Origin: Bacteroidota bacterium
GTDB taxonomy: Bacteria; Bacteroidota; Bacteroidia; JAHEXY01
DNA: 64,000 bases
Assembly (NCBI GenBank): GCA_023251875.1
Contig: JAHEXY010000001.1
Coordinates: forward strand, 620,001-684,000
Direction of reading: 5' to 3'
The notes below the pieces were generated by a model. The model was not told where the DNA came from. It saw nothing but the letters and a program-made list of their open reading frames with translations, and did no database searches. The position numbers were made by a program, and so were the translations under genes. Shown here piece after piece: positions 385 to 58,283 of the stretch (its first letter is position 1; each line of letters starts with the position of its first letter).

Positions 385-1749
385 TTAATTTCCTGCTGTA
401 AATTGATAATTGTATTGCGCCATTAATAATTGCATTTCATGAAGCAAGCGATTTTGTTTGGCTTGGTCTTCGGCATTTACTTCTCTTAAATAATCATTGG
501 CAGTAATAATTCCATTTTCAAGTTGAATATTTGAAGTGTTTTTTACAGAAGTTCTGAGTGCAATAATTTCATCATCTGTTTTTATAAGTTCACTTAATTT
601 ATCTATTTCAGCATTTTGTTGCTTTAAAGTAATATTGGTGTTTAATAAAAAAGTTTCTTTTTGAACGTCTAATAATTCGTCAGTAAGTGAAATAATCTGC
701 ACATCTTTTTTAAGAGAATAATAAGTAGATAAATTCCAATTGAATCTTAGTCCTGTTATGTAGTATGATTTCCATTCCTTCGACAGCATGTTTAAGGGAG
801 AAGGTTGTCCATAACCTCCTTGAAAAAATAAACTCAATTTGGGAATGCTTTTGGTAACCAATAATTTCTTTTGAATACCGTAGCTATTTCTTTGAAGTTC
901 TATTGCTGCTAATTCATGCCTATTAATACCACTCGATAGTTTAGGCATACCGGGTTTTTGTAATGTTGTATTTTCTGTTAATGTTTGATTAATAAAGAGG
1001 CTAAGCATATCAAGATAGGCTTTACGGGACGCATTTAATTCAATACTCCTTTCATTTGCTTTAAGGTATTCTGCCTTCATTTTATCAAGTGAGCTGTGAA
1101 ATTCAACACCATTTTTAATAGCGGCATTTATTTTATCAATAACCACTTGAATATCTTTTTTGAACAATTCATTTTGTGCCGATTGTTCTTCTATTAAGAG
1201 CGCTCCAAAAAATAATTGATTGATTCTATCTTTTAGTTTGTATAAATCAGCTTCTAAATTTTCTTGTTGAATGCTTGAATTGGTGTTTTGTAATTTCTTT
1301 TGTTGGGCTACCGTTATAATATCCGTTAAGGATTGATTGATTTCTCCATAAACTTTATACTGATCTTTAGGCAATGGAGTAAAAGTAAAACCAGGAATAG
1401 TAATGGGTATTGAAGTAACGTCTGATTGGTAAGTAGCTTGCCCGTTTAAGCTTACTTGTGGCCAAACTCCTTTAGAAATATTATCGATAGAAAAATCATT
1501 GCTTTTTTGAATCAATTCCATTTGTTTGGCCATGGGATAATTTTTTTCAGCCAAACTGTAACACTCTTCAATTGAAAGAGAAGTGTTTTGAGAATACAAA
1601 TTGATGTAAATTAAAAATAAACCGACTGAAAGTATTCCGAATTTAAGGACAGGTCTAAAAATTGTATTTTTTTGTTTCCTCTCCCTTAATCCCTCTCTAA
1701 GAGAGGGACACAGATTGTAATTTTTAGACCTGCCCTTAATTTTAAACAT
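385..1749 (-). CDS. TolC-like outer membrane efflux channel
   Basis: The product is an outer membrane efflux protein of the TolC family. After a hydrophobic signal segment ending LYSQ it shows the usual opening (SLSIEECYSLAEKNYP) and long heptad-rich helices that would form the periplasmic barrel. I prefer the ATG at 1749 because the upstream ATG at 1791 overlaps the TetR gene; without the extra residues the length is about 454 aa, normal for the family. The N-region is odd: a dispersed repeat (1645-1738) is inserted in frame and encodes roughly 30 charged residues, including CPSLREGLRER, before the hydrophobic core. The gene follows the TetR gene and precedes the HlyD-like gene. Confidence 0.85.
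   Translation of the reverse strand: MFKIKGRSKNYNLCPSLREGLRERKQKNTIFRPVLKFGILSVGLFLIYINLYSQNTSLSIEECYSLAEKNYPMAKQMELIQKSNDFSIDNISKGVWPQVSLNGQATYQSDVTSIPITIPGFTFTPLPKDQYKVYGEINQSLTDIITVAQQKKLQNTNSSIQQENLEADLYKLKDRINQLFFGALLIEEQSAQNELFKKDIQVVIDKINAAIKNGVEFHSSLDKMKAEYLKANERSIELNASRKAYLDMLSLFINQTLTENTTLQKPGMPKLSSGINRHELAAIELQRNSYGIQKKLLVTKSIPKLSLFFQGGYGQPSPLNMLSKEWKSYYITGLRFNWNLSTYYSLKKDVQIISLTDELLDVQKETFLLNTNITLKQQNAEIDKLSELIKTDDEIIALRTSVKNTSNIQLENGIITANDYLREVNAEDQAKQNRLLHEMQLLMAQYNYQFTAGN
1645..1738 (-). repeat. Dispersed palindromic repeat, copy A (inside tolC-like gene)
   Basis: The ends form an imperfect inverted repeat (AAGGACAGGTCTAAAAATT on the left, AATTTTTAGACCTGCCCTT on the right). 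Inside is a small hairpin, TCCCTCTC-TAAGAGAGGGA read on either strand, followed on the minus strand by TTAAGGGAGAGG. Four other copies occur in the window at 15614, 17661, 53331 and 58190. This copy is the only one lying inside an apparent coding frame. It has no transposase and is MITE-like in structure. Confidence 0.85.
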
Positions 1750-11931: not shown

Positions 11932-12450
11932 ATGAAAATTCATCTAAACCTTAAAGAAAAAGCAGTTTCAATAAGTGTAATTGTAAGCTTGCTTGTTGTT
12001 TTCTATAGTTGTTCAAATAGTAGCAGTACTGAAAATACTTCTACTTCAGGAACTACAGAATCATCTGCAAGTTCCACTTCTGCAAGTAATACAGAAGCCG
12101 CACCTGCTGATCCTATGACTGATAAAGGAATCGGTCCCATTACTTCTTCAATTGAAATTGCAGCATTAGATAATGCATTAGCAGATAAAGGTAAAGGCAT
12201 ATTTGAAGCCAAATGCAGTGCTTGTCATAAAATTGAAAAAAGAGTTGTTGGGCCTGCATTGGGAGGGGTAACTAAAAGGCGTACACCGGAGTGGGTAATG
12301 AATATGATTCTTAATCCAAATGAAATGACAGCAAATGATCCTATTGCAAAAGATTTACTTGCTAATTATGCTGCTCAAATGGCCAATCAAAATTTAACAC
12401 AAGATGAAGCAAGGGCTGTACTTGAGTTTTTTAGATCAAATGACAAATAA
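11932..12450 (+). CDS. Lipid-anchored c-type cytochrome of the nos operon
   Basis: The 172-residue protein has a lipoprotein signal (LLVVFYSCSNS, lipobox cysteine in FYSC), a Ser/Thr/Ala-rich linker of about 45 residues, and a single class I cytochrome c domain with the heme motif CSACHK and a methionine-bearing C-terminal part (AAQMANQNLT). It would sit on the periplasmic side of a membrane and pass electrons, most likely to NosZ, whose gene starts 28 bases downstream. Its heme domain is paralogous to the cytochrome at 58890-59564. Lack of a nosR gene here makes it a good candidate for the electron donor. Confidence 0.88.
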   Translation: MKIHLNLKEKAVSISVIVSLLVVFYSCSNSSSTENTSTSGTTESSASSTSASNTEAAPADPMTDKGIGPITSSIEIAALDNALADKGKGIFEAKCSACHKIEKRVVGPALGGVTKRRTPEWVMNMILNPNEMTANDPIAKDLLANYAAQMANQNLTQDEARAVLEFFRSNDK

Positions 12451-12478
12451 GTTTTTAACTAACCTAAATTTATATTTT

Positions 12479-14476
12479 ATGAATGTTTCATATTTCTGCA
12501 AAAGATTTTCTCAGGAAATGCTTTTAGCTATTGTATTAACAACACTACTTTTTAGCGGTTGTAAAAATGGAGGCAAAGGATCTTCTTCTCCTATGGCCAT
12601 GAGTGATGATGCAGCATCAAAAGTATATGTTGCTCCAGGTAAGTATGATGATTATTATATGTTTACTTCTGGTGGATTTAGTGGGCAAGTTGGCGTTTAT
12701 GGTTTGCCTTCGGGTCGTTTGTTAAAAGTACTTCCTGTTTTTTCTCAAAATCCTGAAAATGGTTATGGCTATAGTGAAGAAACAAAGCCTATGTTAATGA
12801 CGTCTCATGGATTTGTGCCTTGGGGCGATGCCCACCATCCATCTCTATCTAAAACAGATGGAAATGCAGATGGTCGTTGGTTATTTATAAATGAAAACAA
12901 TACACCACGTATTGCGCGTTTAGATTTAAAAACTTTTACTACCTCTGATATTATTGAAATACCAAATAGTAGCGGTAATCACCCTTCGCCTTTTTGTACT
13001 GAAAATACAGAATATGTAATTGCAGGCACAAGATTTAGTGTTCCCGCTCCAAACAAAGATGTTCCTATTTCTTCTTACAAAGAAAATTTTAAAGGAATGA
13101 TTTCATTAGTAAAAGTTGATCAAGGTAACGGACATATGAGTTTGGCTTGCCAAATTATTACCCCTCCATTTGATTATGATAAAAATCATGCAGGGAAGGG
13201 TGTTTCAAGAGATTGGACATTTTTTACTTGCTATAATTCAGAGCAAGCCCATACTATGCTTGAAGCCAATGCCAGCCAAAATGATAAAGATTTTATTATG
13301 GCTGTTAATTGGCGAAAAGCAGAAGAATATTTAAAAGCAGGTAAGGCAAAAGAAATGAATACACCTTACTATCATAATTATATGAATGAAAGTACACAGT
13401 CGGCTGTATCTGAAGTACTGAAAAGTGAAATGGTATTGGATCCTAAAGATTGTCCGGGAATGCTATATTATATGCCATGTCCAAAATCTCCACATGGTGT
13501 TGATGTTAGTCCAACCGGTGAATACATTTGTGCTTCCGGAAAATTAGCTTCCTTAATTCCTGTTTATTCTTTTGATAAAATGCAAAAAGCAATTGAAGCA
13601 AAAGCATTTGATGGAGAAATAGATGGTATTCCTGTTTTAAAATATGATGCAGTTATTGCAGGCGAAGTTCAAAAACCAGGACTTGGTCCTTTGCATACAG
13701 AATTTGACGATAAAGGCTATGCATATACATCTATGTTTATTTCATCTGAAATTGTAAAATGGAAATTAGGTACATGGGAAATTGTTGATAGAATTCCTAC
13801 TTATTATGCAATTGGTCACTTAATGGTTCCTGGAGGTGATAGTAAAAATCCTTATGGAAAATATGTTGTTGCTTTGAATAAAATTACAAAAGACAGGTAT
13901 CTCCCTACAGGTCCTGAATTAACACAAGCTGCACAGTTAATAGATATTTCTGGAGATAAAATGAAAATGTTACTCGACTTTCCAACCATTGGTGAGCCAC
14001 ATTATGCACAAGCTATAGCTGCAGATATGCTTACAAAAAATAATGTTAAGTATTATAAAATAGAAGATAATCATCACCCTTATGTTTGTAAATCTGAAAA
14101 AGATACAAGGGTTGAAAGAAAGGGAAATGAAGTACATATTTATATGACATGTATTCGTTCTCACTTTGCGCCTGACAATATTGAGGGCGTTAAAGTTGGC
14201 GATGTAGTTTACTTTCATATTACAAATCTTGAACAAGATTGGGATGTACCGCATGGATTTGCTGTTGAAGGCAACAATAACTCTGAATTATTAATTATGC
14301 CCGGAGAAACAAGAACTTTAAAATGGGAGCCAAAAGATATTGGCATAATTCCATTCTATTGCACCGATTTTTGTTCTGCACTTCATCAAGAAATGCAAGG
14401 TTATATTAGGGTTTCAGATAAAAATGCCAATACACCAATTAAATTTAGCTTAAATGAAGATGACAGTCAAAAGTAA
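12479..14476 (+). CDS. nosZ: Nitrous oxide reductase, clade II
   Basis: The enzyme reduces N2O to N2 in the periplasm. The N-terminal beta-propeller carries histidine motifs for the CuZ centre (DAHHPSLS, SPHGVDVSP, GPLHTEFD, IGHLMVPGG, GEPHYAQAI). The C-terminal cupredoxin domain carries the CuA ligands (VPHGF and CTDFCSALHQEMQGY). I start at the ATG at 12479, giving 665 aa: the leader then reads as a Sec/lipoprotein signal ending LLFSGC, with no twin arginine, which is the clade II (atypical) pattern. The longer frame from 12404 would overlap the cytochrome gene. It is the second gene of the operon. nirK/nirS and nor genes are not in the window. Confidence 0.97.
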   Translation: MNVSYFCKRFSQEMLLAIVLTTLLFSGCKNGGKGSSSPMAMSDDAASKVYVAPGKYDDYYMFTSGGFSGQVGVYGLPSGRLLKVLPVFSQNPENGYGYSEETKPMLMTSHGFVPWGDAHHPSLSKTDGNADGRWLFINENNTPRIARLDLKTFTTSDIIEIPNSSGNHPSPFCTENTEYVIAGTRFSVPAPNKDVPISSYKENFKGMISLVKVDQGNGHMSLACQIITPPFDYDKNHAGKGVSRDWTFFTCYNSEQAHTMLEANASQNDKDFIMAVNWRKAEEYLKAGKAKEMNTPYYHNYMNESTQSAVSEVLKSEMVLDPKDCPGMLYYMPCPKSPHGVDVSPTGEYICASGKLASLIPVYSFDKMQKAIEAKAFDGEIDGIPVLKYDAVIAGEVQKPGLGPLHTEFDDKGYAYTSMFISSEIVKWKLGTWEIVDRIPTYYAIGHLMVPGGDSKNPYGKYVVALNKITKDRYLPTGPELTQAAQLIDISGDKMKMLLDFPTIGEPHYAQAIAADMLTKNNVKYYKIEDNHHPYVCKSEKDTRVERKGNEVHIYMTCIRSHFAPDNIEGVKVGDVVYFHITNLEQDWDVPHGFAVEGNNNSELLIMPGETRTLKWEPKDIGIIPFYCTDFCSALHQEMQGYIRVSDKNANTPIKFSLNEDDSQK

Positions 14477-14557: not shown

Positions 14558-15595
14558 ATGAAAAAAATATCGACCATATTAATTGCCATTGCTTCACTTG
14601 CGCTTATTGTAAATTATTTTGTACCCATGTGGAGCATAAGCCTTGATGCGCCTCAGTATCCTGAAGGTTTAGGTTTTTTAATTTGGTTAAATAAAATGAC
14701 AGGTGATTTGCATACTGTTAATGGACTTAACCATTACATTGGCATGAAATTAATAGAACCTGATTCAATACCTGAATTAAAATGGATGCCGTATTTAGTA
14801 GGTATAATAATTGGATTGGGATTTTTAGTGGTGTTAGCGAGAAAAAAATGGTTGCTTTATACTTGGACTTTTTTATTTCTTGCTCTCTGTGTTGTTGGTT
14901 GTATAGATTTTTATTTATGGGAATATGATTATGGCCATAATTTAAATCCTCATGCAGCCATAATTGTTCCTGGAATGACCTACCAGCCACCATTAATTGG
15001 AGATAAGCAATTGCTTAATTTCACTGCTCATTCATATCCTGATATTGGCGGCATGGCAATTATTATAGCTGCATTAATAGCCTTTCTTGTAAGTGTTTTT
15101 GAGCTAAAATTATCGTTTAAAAAAGTAAGTTCAAGCTATTCTTCGTTTTCTGCAAATGCTATTTCTGGCATGCTAATTACTATAACGTTTTTATCATCAT
15201 GTAGTAATCATGAAGAGCCTATTAATTATGGAAACGAACAATGCACAAGTTGTAAAATGACCATTGCTGATAATCGTTTTGGAGCAGAAATAATTACCAA
15301 AAAAGGAAAAGTATTTAAGTTTGATTCAATAGAATGTATGTTGGCTTTTATGAATAAAAGTTCAATAGAGGCAAATGATATAGAAAAATATTTGATTACC
15401 GATTATTCCGCAACACAATCATTAGTTGATGCTTCTACCGCTTGTTACTTGACATGCAATGAAATTTCAAGTCCAATGGGTGCTAATTTAGCCGGATTTA
15501 AAGAAAAAGAAGAAGCAAATAAATTTCAATCACAAAAAGGGGGGGAAATATTATCTTGGAATGAAGTTAAACAAGAAATAAGCATACAGAAATAA
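14558..15595 (+). CDS. nosL: Fusion of a nos-operon membrane protein with copper chaperone NosL
   Basis: Residues 1-about 195 hold four hydrophobic segments (around 7-27, 78-96, 101-120, 163-185) and a GLNHYIGMK motif; this matches, from memory, the unnamed membrane protein (NosB-like) that follows nosZ in clade II operons. Residues about 200-345 are a NosL domain: a second hydrophobic stretch with lipobox-like FLSSCSN, then the copper-binding CTSCKMTI and the FDSIECMLAFM motif. NosL delivers copper for NosZ maturation. In most genomes the two parts are separate genes, so this is a fusion or a lost stop. The gene lies between nosZ and nosD. Confidence 0.85.
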   Translation: MKKISTILIAIASLALIVNYFVPMWSISLDAPQYPEGLGFLIWLNKMTGDLHTVNGLNHYIGMKLIEPDSIPELKWMPYLVGIIIGLGFLVVLARKKWLLYTWTFLFLALCVVGCIDFYLWEYDYGHNLNPHAAIIVPGMTYQPPLIGDKQLLNFTAHSYPDIGGMAIIIAALIAFLVSVFELKLSFKKVSSSYSSFSANAISGMLITITFLSSCSNHEEPINYGNEQCTSCKMTIADNRFGAEIITKKGKVFKFDSIECMLAFMNKSSIEANDIEKYLITDYSATQSLVDASTACYLTCNEISSPMGANLAGFKEKEEANKFQSQKGGEILSWNEVKQEISIQK

Positions 15596-15613: not shown

Positions 15614-15705
15614 TTAAGGGAGTTCTAAAAATTACAATTTTTGTCCCTCTCTTTGAGAGGGATTAAGGGAGAGGAAAAAAAAATAATTTTTAGAACTCTC
15701 CTTAA
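15614..15705 (+). repeat. Dispersed palindromic repeat, copy B
   Basis: The ends TTAAGGGAGTTCTAAAAATT and AATTTTTAGAACTCTCCTTAA are near-perfect inverted repeats. The core is TCCCTCTC-TTTGAGAGGGA followed by TTAAGGGAGAGG. It fills the gap between the nosL fusion and nosD. Confidence 0.88.
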
Positions 15706-15722
15706 CCTATACAATCTCTATT

Positions 15723-16961
15723 GTGGTAAAAAATATCCTGTTTTTCATTTCTATTTTCATTTTTTCAATTACTGCACAATATGCCAGTACCATTTTTGTT
15801 TCTCCAAATGGAAAAAATAATTCTATTGCCAAAGCCATCCAAATGGCTCAATCTAGAGATAAAATTGTAATTAAGCCCGGCAAATATTTTGAAAATGCTA
15901 TTGTAATTGATAAACCTCTTGATATAGAAGGAGAGCTCTATCCTATTCTTGACGGGAACAATAAAGAAGGTGTTTTTATTGTAAAATCTGATAGTGTAAC
16001 AATTAAAGGTTTGCAAATTCAAAATATAGGAATGAGCCAAATTGATGACAGGGCAGGCATAAAATTTTTTAGTGTAAAAAATTGTCTGGTCGAAAATAAT
16101 AAATTGATCAATACCTGTTTTGGAATTTACTTTGCAAGATCAAGTGATTGTGTAATACGCAATAATTTTGTGCAAGGTTTTGCAACAAGAGAAACAGAAA
16201 CCGGAAATGCCATTCATCTATTTAAGTGTACTAATTTTTTAATTGAAAACAATACTGTTTCCGGACACAGAGATGGTATCTATTTTGAATTTGTTGAAAA
16301 CACAAAAGTTTGTGGAAATACAAGTTTTAAACAAATTAGATATGGTATGCATTTTATGTTTTCGCACGAAAACGAATATTCTAAAAATAAATTTTTTAAC
16401 AATGGTGCCGGTGTAGCCGTAATGTATTCGCATCACATATACATGCACGAAAATGAATTTACCGATAATTGGAGCCCTGTTTCAAATGGTTTGTTGCTAA
16501 AAGATATTAAAGACAGTAAAATTGAAAATAATTTTATTGATAGAAATACCATTGGCTTATTTGCTGAAGGCTGCTTGCGATTAGAAGTAAAGCATAACCG
16601 ATTTTCTAAAAATGGTTGGGCATTAAAAGTTTTAGGAGACTGTTATGATAATAATTTTACCGACAATAATTTTATCTCCAATACCTTTGAAGTAGTTACC
16701 AATGCTACTGTAAGCAATAATATATTTGAACATAATTATTGGACAGAATATAGTGGTTATGATTTAAATAACGATGGTATTGGCGATGTGCCTCACAGTC
16801 CCGTTAAATTGTATACCTATTTAATAGAAAGAGTACCTGAAAGTATTGTACTTTTAAGAAGTTTATTTATCGATTTATTAAATTTAGCAGAGAAAGTTGC
16901 ACCTGTAATAACACCTGAATCGTTAGAAGATCATAAACCGGCAATGAAAGCAATTAAATGA
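15723..16961 (+). CDS. nosD: NosD, periplasmic copper-site maturation protein
   Basis: The 412-residue protein has a Sec signal (FFISIFIFSITAQYAS) and a long right-handed parallel beta-helix with repeated N-rich turns (IENNTVSG, IENNFIDRN, and similar) of the NosD/CASH type. With NosF and NosY it forms the ABC system needed to build the CuZ centre of NosZ. The start is GTG at 15723; no upstream ATG fits. The stop overlaps the nosF start by four bases, indicating coupling. Length is normal for the family. Confidence 0.93.
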   Translation: MVKNILFFISIFIFSITAQYASTIFVSPNGKNNSIAKAIQMAQSRDKIVIKPGKYFENAIVIDKPLDIEGELYPILDGNNKEGVFIVKSDSVTIKGLQIQNIGMSQIDDRAGIKFFSVKNCLVENNKLINTCFGIYFARSSDCVIRNNFVQGFATRETETGNAIHLFKCTNFLIENNTVSGHRDGIYFEFVENTKVCGNTSFKQIRYGMHFMFSHENEYSKNKFFNNGAGVAVMYSHHIYMHENEFTDNWSPVSNGLLLKDIKDSKIENNFIDRNTIGLFAEGCLRLEVKHNRFSKNGWALKVLGDCYDNNFTDNNFISNTFEVVTNATVSNNIFEHNYWTEYSGYDLNNDGIGDVPHSPVKLYTYLIERVPESIVLLRSLFIDLLNLAEKVAPVITPESLEDHKPAMKAIK

Positions 16962-17662
16962 TAAAATTTACAGACATACATAAATCGTTCGGGAAATTAC
17001 AAGTTCTCAAAGGCGTTTCTTTTGACATTCAAAAGGGGCAGTGCATGGCAATTTTAGGCCCTAATGGTTCCGGTAAATCAACTTTAATAAAATCTATTTT
17101 AGGTTTGGTAATTCCTGATAAAGGAGAAATTTTTATTGATGAAAATAATATTATTGGCCAATCTGATTATAGAAATGAAATTGGCTATTTGCCTCAAATA
17201 ACAAAACTGCCTGAAAATATTTCAGTAATTGAATTGTTAAAAATGATTCAAGATATTAGAAAAACTACAGGAAATATAGATGAATTGGTTACCTACTTTG
17301 GCATTGCTAATTATTTAAATAAAACATTAAAAACTTTATCAGGAGGTACGCGCCAAAAAGTAAATGTGATTTTATCTTTAATGTTTAATGCATCACTTTA
17401 TATTTTTGATGAACCTACTGTTGGCCTAGATCCTATTTCATGCGTAAAATTTAAACAAAGAGTATTGCAAGAAAAACAAAATGGCAAAACCGTAATTCTT
17501 ACTACCCATATTTTATCAGAAGTAGAAGAATTAGCCGATCAAATTGTATTTATTATGGATGGGCAAATTTATTATCATGGTTCACCTGATCAATTAAAAA
17601 ATAATTATCAAGAAAATACATTAGAAAAAGCCATTGCAAAAATGCTGGAAACTTATAAATAG
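16958..17662 (+). CDS. nosF: NosF, ABC transporter ATPase for NosZ maturation
   Basis: The 234-residue protein has Walker A GPNGSGKST (about 34-42), signature LSGGTRQK, Walker B LYIFDEPTVGLDP and the H-loop THILSE. It energises the NosDFY complex in copper-site assembly. The start codon overlaps the nosD stop (ATGA). A dispersed repeat begins at its stop codon. Confidence 0.94.
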   Translation: MIKFTDIHKSFGKLQVLKGVSFDIQKGQCMAILGPNGSGKSTLIKSILGLVIPDKGEIFIDENNIIGQSDYRNEIGYLPQITKLPENISVIELLKMIQDIRKTTGNIDELVTYFGIANYLNKTLKTLSGGTRQKVNVILSLMFNASLYIFDEPTVGLDPISCVKFKQRVLQEKQNGKTVILTTHILSEVEELADQIVFIMDGQIYYHGSPDQLKNNYQENTLEKAIAKMLETYK

Positions 17663-17737
17663 TTTAAAATTGTCCATTAATGTCCCTCTTTGTGAGAGGG
17701 ATTAAGGGAGAGGAGATAAATAAAACAATTTTAAACT
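17661..17737 (+). repeat. Dispersed palindromic repeat, copy C (shortest)
   Basis: The ends AGTTTAAAATTGT and ACAATTTTAAACT are inverted repeats; the core is TGTCCCTCTT-TGTGAGAGGGATTAAGGGAGAGG-like. It starts on the nosF stop codon and ends 20 bases before the nosY start, so it separates two genes whose products work in one complex. Confidence 0.82.
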
Positions 17738-17757
17738 ACTCGTTTAATATAAAATGT

Positions 17758-18540
17758 ATGCTAAAAATTTTCAAATATAGTTTTTACGATCTTTTAAGAA
17801 GCCGATGGCTACTCATGTATTTTTTATTTTTTCTTGCTACCACTTTTGCTTTGCTTTATTTGTCGAGTGATATTTCAAAAGGCATTGTAAGTTTAATGAA
17901 TATCATTATAGCCATTATTCCTGTTATCAGTATCATTTTTGGAGTAATGTATTATTATAATTCTCGCGAATTTATCGATTTGTTATTATCGCAACCTATA
18001 AAACGTAAATCTGTTTTTTTAGGTCAGTTTTTAGGATTATCTCTTTCTCTTGCCTTGAGTTTTGTATTGGGAATGATCATTCCATTTGCTGTGTACGGTA
18101 TTTTTACTTCATCTGAAATATGGAATTTTTCATCGCTTTTATTTATTGGCGTAATACTCACCCTTATTTTTGTTTCACTAGCCTATTTAATTTCTATTTT
18201 AAATGACGATAAAATAAAAGGCTTTGGAATAGCCATTCTCGTTTGGATTCTTTTTTCGGTAATATATGATGGCGCCTTACTTTTATTTTTTGTTTCGTTT
18301 AGTGATTACCCACTTCAAAAATTTGCCATTGTATTAACGGTATTAAATCCGGTTGATTTGGCCAGGGTAATGGTTTTATTAAAATTGGATGTGTCAGCAT
18401 TAATGGGTTATACAGGCGCTGTATTTAATCAATTTTTTGGTACTACATGGGGAATGTTCATTTCTTCATTCTCACTTTTATTATGGATTTTTATTCCCCT
18501 CTTTTCTTTTTTGAGAATTATAAAGAAAAAAGATTTTTAA
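17758..18540 (+). CDS. nosY: NosY, membrane permease for NosZ maturation
   Basis: The 260-residue protein has six hydrophobic segments and the ABC-2 permease pattern (RSRWLLMYFLFF near the start, FIDLLLSQPIKRKSVFLGQ in the middle). It is the membrane partner of NosF/NosD. I use the ATG at 17758; a longer frame from 17680 only adds repeat-derived residues. It is the last nos gene; the flavoenzyme operon begins shortly after. Confidence 0.92.
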   Translation: MLKIFKYSFYDLLRSRWLLMYFLFFLATTFALLYLSSDISKGIVSLMNIIIAIIPVISIIFGVMYYYNSREFIDLLLSQPIKRKSVFLGQFLGLSLSLALSFVLGMIIPFAVYGIFTSSEIWNFSSLLFIGVILTLIFVSLAYLISILNDDKIKGFGIAILVWILFSVIYDGALLLFFVSFSDYPLQKFAIVLTVLNPVDLARVMVLLKLDVSALMGYTGAVFNQFFGTTWGMFISSFSLLLWIFIPLFSFLRIIKKKDF

Positions 18541-53305: not shown

Positions 53306-53330
53306 AGTTATGGAGATAAAAATTAGTTAT

Positions 53331-53420
53331 GGGCAGTTCTTAAAATTACAATTTGTGTCCCTCTCATGGAGAGGGATTAAGGGAGAGGGAACTAAAAAAT
53401 ATAATTTTTAGAACTGCCCT
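53331..53420 (+). repeat. Dispersed palindromic repeat, copy D
   Basis: Ends GGGCAGTTCTTAAAATT and AATTTTTAGAACTGCCC are inverted repeats; the core is TCCCTCTC-ATGGAGAGGGA followed by TTAAGGGAGAGG. It lies between the beta and gamma subunit genes. Confidence 0.88.
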
Positions 53421-53462
53421 TATGGTATTGAAAGTAAAATTTAATTCTAATACACATTCAAA

Positions 53463-58190: not shown

Positions 58191-58283
58191 TGTGGTGTTC
58201 TGAAAATTACAATTTATGTCCCTCTCTTTGAGAGGGATTAAGGGAGAGGAAACAAAAAATACAATTTTTAGAACTCTCCCAAT
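58190..58283 (+). repeat. Dispersed palindromic repeat, copy E
   Basis: Ends TTGTGGTGTTCTGAAAATT and AATTTTTAGAACTCTCCCAA are imperfect inverted repeats; the core is TCCCTCTC-TTTGAGAGGGA followed by TTAAGGGAGAGG. It occupies the whole 5' region of moaD up to its start codon. Confidence 0.87.

Follow-up and report, generated by a model that had tools for sequence, protein, structure and literature searches.

A nosB-nosL fusion with a conserved internal lipobox in a clade II nos operon of the Bacteroidota, a candidate polyprotein

In the window analysed here (64,000 nucleotides of contig JAHEXY010000001.1, positions 620,001 to 684,000, from a Bacteroidota bacterium, assembly GCA_023251875.1) the membrane protein NosB and the copper chaperone NosL of a clade II nos operon are encoded by a single gene, nosB-L, and we lean towards reading its product as a polyprotein that would be cut at an internal lipobox into NosB and a NosL lipoprotein. 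The sequences present one ORF, a conserved lipobox, topology signals and a repeated interchange between fused and split genes; a polyprotein is the most economical account, and fusion or fission of the genes would leave its products unchanged.

The ORF listing of the window gives nosB-L a single frame from ATG to stop at 14558-15595 on the forward strand (345 codons plus stop, 345 aa). Its product begins with the NosB domain (residues 1-185, 14558-15112), comprising four TM helices and periplasmic beta strands, and continues through a linker and hydrophobic stretch delimited by hydropathy, charges and AlphaFold (residues 186-214, 15113-15199), at the end of which stands the lipobox LSSC (residues 212-215, 15191-15202); the NosL domain (residues 216-345, 15203-15592), identified by PF05573 and by a fold match to 7og7, closes the chain. 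Hydropathy displayed four TM-like segments and a fifth hydrophobic one ending at residue 215, and PF05573 matched residues 226-341 with 73.3 bits against a cut-off of 24; together with the single 345-codon frame, these results bear out the fusion of a four-helix membrane protein with NosL that a preliminary description had proposed. The membrane protein, which that description left unnamed, is NosB by the motifs LNHYIGM (residues 57-63) and YGHN (residues 125-128) described in PMC9697520; its gene portion, coding for a four-helix membrane protein, lies directly 3' of a clade II nosZ. A Pfam match to DNA_pol3_delta2 at residues 178-280 scored 20.1 bits, under the cut-off of 27, and was not used.

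The copper motif CxxCxM reads CTSCKM in the NosL of the window (residues 229-234, 15242-15259), and across 44 fusions its second Cys and its Met were present in all 44 and its first Cys in 38. Fused NosL proteins of one family, f77 (L048, L049, L051, L059, L072 and L073), are without this first Cys and keep both CxM and the lipobox; the split NosL proteins L081 and L116 are also without it. The AlphaFold model of the window protein had a mean pLDDT of 91.4 and a pTM of 0.70, and its NosL part matched 7og7 with Z 15.8 and rmsd 2.6 over 125 residues. The gene nosB-L is the only match to PF05573 in its own genome, and the NosL half of the fusion is predicted to be one that could deliver Cu(I) to NosZ.

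The operon runs in the order cytochrome c, nosZ, nosB-L, nosD, nosF, nosY, all on the forward strand. The c-type cytochrome (11932-12450; PF00034, 41.3 bits, cut-off 21.3) has a lipobox-like N-terminus (VVFYSC) and is followed by nosZ, encoding a clade II Sec-type nitrous oxide reductase (12404-14476; TIGR04246, 950.8 bits, cut-off 625), the real start of which probably lies downstream of the listed ATG. Beyond nosB-L are nosD, with a GTG start (15723-16961; TIGR04247, 416.3 bits, cut-off 300), and two genes named from their position in the operon, nosF for an ABC ATPase (16958-17662; PF00005) and nosY for an ABC-2 type permease (17680-18540; PF12679, 43 bits, cut-off 27.2). The NosZ and NosD scores uphold the earlier assignment to a clade II nos operon. 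NosZ is lipoprotein-like too: its N-terminus in the window ends in LLFSGC, a strict lipobox test was passed by 123 of 146 NosZ N-termini and the remaining 23, judged by eye, have a Cys after the hydrophobic stretch.

Of note, the interval from nosB-L to nosD contains a palindromic element of ~92 bases (15614-15705), which has a predicted RNA fold of -37.9 kcal/mol (z -4.9) and is found in at least 40 genomic places including its own at 84% identity or more (40 of the 147 candidates scored). The element resembles a MITE or REP element, and the window has more copies of it at 1643-1739 (reverse strand), 53327-53422 and 58194-58279. A weaker copy (81%) at 17661-17732 is placed between nosF and nosY; the listed nosY ORF begins within it (window 17680-17760), and the real start of nosY is probably the later Met of MLKIFKYSF.

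The internal lipobox-like LSSCSN pointed out in the preliminary description was found in the window protein at the junction of the two domains, with Cys215 encoded at 15200-15202, and this Cys is invariant among the fusions. It was kept in every row of two fusion alignments (44/44 in the first and 70/70 in the second, window included). In the 44 fusions the column of Cys215 had an entropy of 0 bits, the other columns of the 186-228 region averaged 2.70 bits with none below 1.03, and position -1 had 1.51 bits; the linker around the Cys is poorly conserved. Junctions inspected one by one gave the same result, with the Cys in 69/69 fusions of a scan of named genomes and in 44/44 of the other set, six of them (one family) by eye.

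The fit to a lipobox core was evaluated with a PROSITE-style pattern, and the expectation was obtained by shuffling the 16 residues preceding the Cys. Among distinct fused internal sites 98 of 111 fitted (24.1 expected from shuffling), and the same pattern was fitted by only 13 of the 501 other Cys of the same ORFs; for split NosL the figure was 104 of 116 (11.9 expected). Duplicates had been removed (2 of 113 fused rows, 1 of 118 split rows), and one more split row was too short for the lipobox test. The Cys finder looks 13-20 residues before the copper motif and settled on the wrong Cys nearby in L172, L184 and L224 at least, whereas the junctions inspected one by one display the correct Cys; the fusion counts of 101/111 and 98/111 are therefore slightly low. 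Lipobox preferences of the fusions resemble those of stand-alone NosL, and poor lipoboxes do exist among them (SLNC in L042, QLSC in L038); the uncharged stretch before the Cys had a median length of 16 in fusions versus 13 in split proteins. Moreover, when the fusion profile was compared with the solved NosL 7osf_H, the hydrophobic segment and Cys of the fusions aligned with the signal peptide and lipobox of 7osf_H. PMC6530538 describes for NosL a type II signal peptidase site, a Cys that should become acylated and a likely destination in the outer membrane.

The charges of the window protein fit the positive-inside rule: counts of K+R/D+E in successive alternating segments, N-terminus first and linker last, were 2/0, 3/6, 3/0, 1/4 and 3/0, and by these counts the chain would have four helices and a fifth segment running in-to-out. 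The window linker (183-203) holds three Lys and no acid, and in 111 fusions the residues that precede the hydrophobic stretch had a median net charge of +4, with a value of zero or less in 2 of 111. NosB alone is predicted to end in the cytoplasm, and NosL therefore needs a fifth crossing, which a retained signal peptide provides. NosL could not cross the membrane if the hydrophobic stretch were lost, so evidence for processing comes only from the Cys and the residues next to it; the fifth crossing explains why the hydrophobic stretch is kept, but not the Cys or the small residue before it. In the AlphaFold model the linker region 191-220 had a pLDDT of about 55-70, with a helix at 200-211.

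A polyprotein would thus be handled as follows. The four NosB helices would insert with both ends in the cytoplasm and the basic linker would remain inside, and the short hydrophobic segment, as NosL's original signal peptide, would cross outward and bring NosL to the periplasm. Lgt would then lipidate Cys215 and LspA would cut before it, giving NosB and a normal NosL lipoprotein, and the freed lipoprotein would supply copper to NosDFY and NosZ. Lipidation, cleavage and copper hand-over are steps that we infer. The window's own genome has two LspA genes, ~3.3 kb apart (C19:260903-261451 and 264760-265302), and an LspA match was obtained in 39/40 fused and 40/40 split genomes tested (sets of 40 drawn from 44 fused and 107 split), G044 being the fused genome without one. 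Extra LspA copies were considered as a companion of the fusion and set aside, as two or more matches occurred in 3/40 fused versus 3/40 split genomes, with no link.

The preliminary description took separate genes to be the usual state; in our survey of nos operons the fusion is not rare. Among 99 genomes sampled as relatives, 37 had a match (15 fused, 22 split); in a sample of the phylum 132 of 395 genomes had one, and of the 119 examined 30 were fused and 89 split (the other 13 were not fetched and are left out of these counts). Taken without overlap, the two samples, which carry out within the Bacteroidota the survey for the same fusion that had been suggested, held 44 fused and 107 split loci. 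When named genomes were scanned with the fused alignment, 69 of the best 80 loci were fused and 11 split; these loci are the top scorers to a fused query and are biased to fusions, and they were excluded from the frequencies and the tree. The 69 fused loci fell into Bacteroidota (56), Ignavibacteriota (4), Rhodothermota (3), Verrucomicrobiota (2) and Zixibacteria (1), with three lacking a phylum. Cultured isolates that carry the fusion include Runella and Niabella (L218, L225 and L221).

To follow the two states we built a tree of NosB, a quick one with 151 rows of a short domain, which counts changes between fused and split without giving their direction. At least 23 changes were needed, below the mean of 38 obtained with shuffled labels (0 of 500 shufflings were as low as observed), and the well-supported branches, starred on the tree, force 8; because 52 of the 148 branches are weakly supported, 8 is the safe number. 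Fused and split states therefore switch often on the NosB tree, with at least 8 changes. Seven fused-only clades together accumulated 12.85 NosB changes per column (midpoint rooting) with the Cys in every row. At 9 of the 107 split loci the open NosL frame reaches back, without a shift of frame, as far as the NosB stop codon, and that one codon therefore separates the two states there. In the split loci L084, L093, L116, L129, L131, L133, L136, L137 and L138 the open NosL frame starts ~0.5-0.8 kb past the NosB stop, and something must therefore sit between NosB and NosL.

The repeated fusion can also be taken as the mark of a permanent tether, in which NosB-L would stay one chain of five transmembrane segments and keep the copper chaperone at the inner membrane, close to NosB and the partners of NosB. 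The single ORF without a usable internal start agrees with it, as do a topology that would put NosL in the periplasm and a fusion recurring many times, suggesting that NosB and NosL work close together. Nevertheless, we consider the tether unlikely, though it deserves serious weight: it leaves the kept Cys215 and its small -1 neighbour unexplained, the AlphaFold segment 200-211, modelled with low confidence, is short for a helix that spans the membrane, and the passage to the outer membrane thought to be made by NosL elsewhere (PMC6530538) would be prevented. The proposal of the preliminary description, in which the fusion ties the delivery of copper to the membrane partner, likewise fits poorly with a conserved signal peptidase II site at the join, which predicts NosL to be cut free. 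Cys215 might also be kept for some other reason, such as metal binding. Lgt substrates are recognised by a Cys with a small residue at -1, and the conserved Cys and small -1 residues of the fusions would also suit a protein that is lipidated and left uncut, where Lgt puts diacylglyceryl on Cys215 as a second anchor and LspA leaves the site intact; with LspA in 39/40 of the fused genomes tested, and with sites similar to the ones in split NosL, where cleavage is expected, this outcome appears rather improbable.

NosL might instead be translated on its own within the fused ORF, through an internal start or re-initiation, and start-like codons are not scarce: within the 31 codons before the Cys an ATG occurs in 64 of 111 fusions, and an ATG, GTG or TTG in 98 of 111. 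However, an ATG followed by K or R is found over that interval in 46/111 fusions versus 108/117 split nosL genes, and codons 183-214 of the window gene, read by eye, hold a single ATG, GTG or TTG, the ATG at 15170 (M205), from which the product would begin MLITITFLSSC without Lys or Arg and thus without a basic n-region. We regard an internal start, which had been named as a possible refutation of the fusion, as very improbable. An assembly or sequencing error joining two genes, the other possible refutation, is next to negligible, given that the joined architecture recurs in 43 further genomes and in 69/80 best loci of the second collection, at about 37-56% identity, and is already in print (PMC9697520). 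The cleaved polyprotein is thus the reading carried forward below.

The NosB half was also compared with solved structures, and 45 of the 50 best structure matches of the window model cover it: by their titles, these are claudins, TARP and other AMPA-receptor auxiliary subunits, MP20, DUOX1-DUOXA1 and a designed claudin fold, the best of the claudin-like folds having Z 11.1 and rmsd 4.5 over 151 residues. A second AlphaFold model, of the split NosB of Fodinibius halophilus (L163:6001-6621; pLDDT 94.0, pTM 0.85), returned the same claudin/TARP group by titles in its best 50 matches (best Z 11.4, rmsd 3.5 over 155). These NosB Z values are below 13, the threshold advised for helical models, and Foldseek with NosB alone reached E 2.1e-3 at best. 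Searches by sequence pointed to no relative: no claudin was matched among solved structures at E up to 1 and no other believable sequence relative was found there, no claudin Pfam family was among those matched by 62 NosB members, and no family was consistent among them (DUF4131 matched 15 of the 62, best E 0.0072). A library of viral structures gave no match at E 0.001 or better. The first extracellular loop of claudins has a signature of a conserved W and a Cys pair; in NosB W25 is invariant, and the invariant or nearly invariant alignment columns include no Cys. We take the predicted NosB to resemble the claudin/TARP fold, a resemblance too weak to claim kinship or membership. No paper joining NosB and claudin was among the literature matches listed, and the prediction would offer a first structural analogy for NosB, one with auxiliary membrane subunits and not with channels or enzymes.

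The fusion itself is already published, and the window gene is a further example of it. PMC9697520 describes NosB-L in Flavobacterium azooxidireducens and its close relatives, finds the two genes split in other flavobacteria, and refers to van Spanning 2011 and Hein 2017 for a NosB-NosL fusion in Dyadobacter fermentans. It credits the same two works with the idea that NosB acts in electron transport or in the handling of copper and with the very copper argument made in the preliminary description, and reports by citation that NosB is needed for N2O respiration in Wolinella succinogenes. The window gene agrees with the Flavobacterium NosB-L of that paper in being one gene between nosZ and nosD with the LNHYIGM and YGHN motifs; it differs in that the paper names the fusion and suggests a combined function, whereas the lipobox, its conservation and the fused/split interchange are added here. 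The word "lipoprotein" is absent from PMC9697520. The Dyadobacter fermentans fusion, as cited there, likewise unites NosB and NosL within a clade II nos cluster, in another lineage.

With stand-alone NosL (PF05573; 7og7, 7osf; PMC6530538) the window protein shares the CxM copper motif, the fold and the lipobox Cys, and CXXCXM is the motif given for clade II NosL in PMC6530538; it differs in that NosB precedes NosL in the chain, making the signal peptide internal. In the NosB-NosC2 fusion described in PMC11409646, likewise from clade II clusters, NosB is joined to a different Nos protein, a cytochrome instead of NosL. No paper on this lipobox junction was found by title or start of abstract in the non-subscription literature searched, in which no precedent for an internal signal peptidase II polyprotein was recognised either, and the useful addition here appears to be the internal lipobox with what follows from it. 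Its fusion to NosL has been cited as a clue that NosB takes part in copper handling, and would point to a durable complex of the two; should LspA cut the join, that conclusion weakens to one of co-synthesis, and a general caution would follow for the reading of gene fusions between membrane proteins and lipoproteins.

More broadly, nosB-L may represent a self-separating respiratory polyprotein, in which an internal lipoprotein signal permits genes to fuse and unfuse freely, with Lgt and LspA restoring the same two products, a generalisation on which we hold an evenly balanced view. If so, the fusion would be no sign of a lasting tether, but would make sure that NosB and NosL are produced in equal amounts and inserted together. 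A respiratory polyprotein of this kind is encoded by fbcH of Bradyrhizobium, where cytochrome b and cytochrome c1, a membrane and a periplasmic protein, are synthesised as a single chain that has an internal signal peptide where the two meet and is cut later. The fbcH product is cut by signal peptidase I, whereas the join in the window protein carries a type II lipobox, at which cleavage is predicted.
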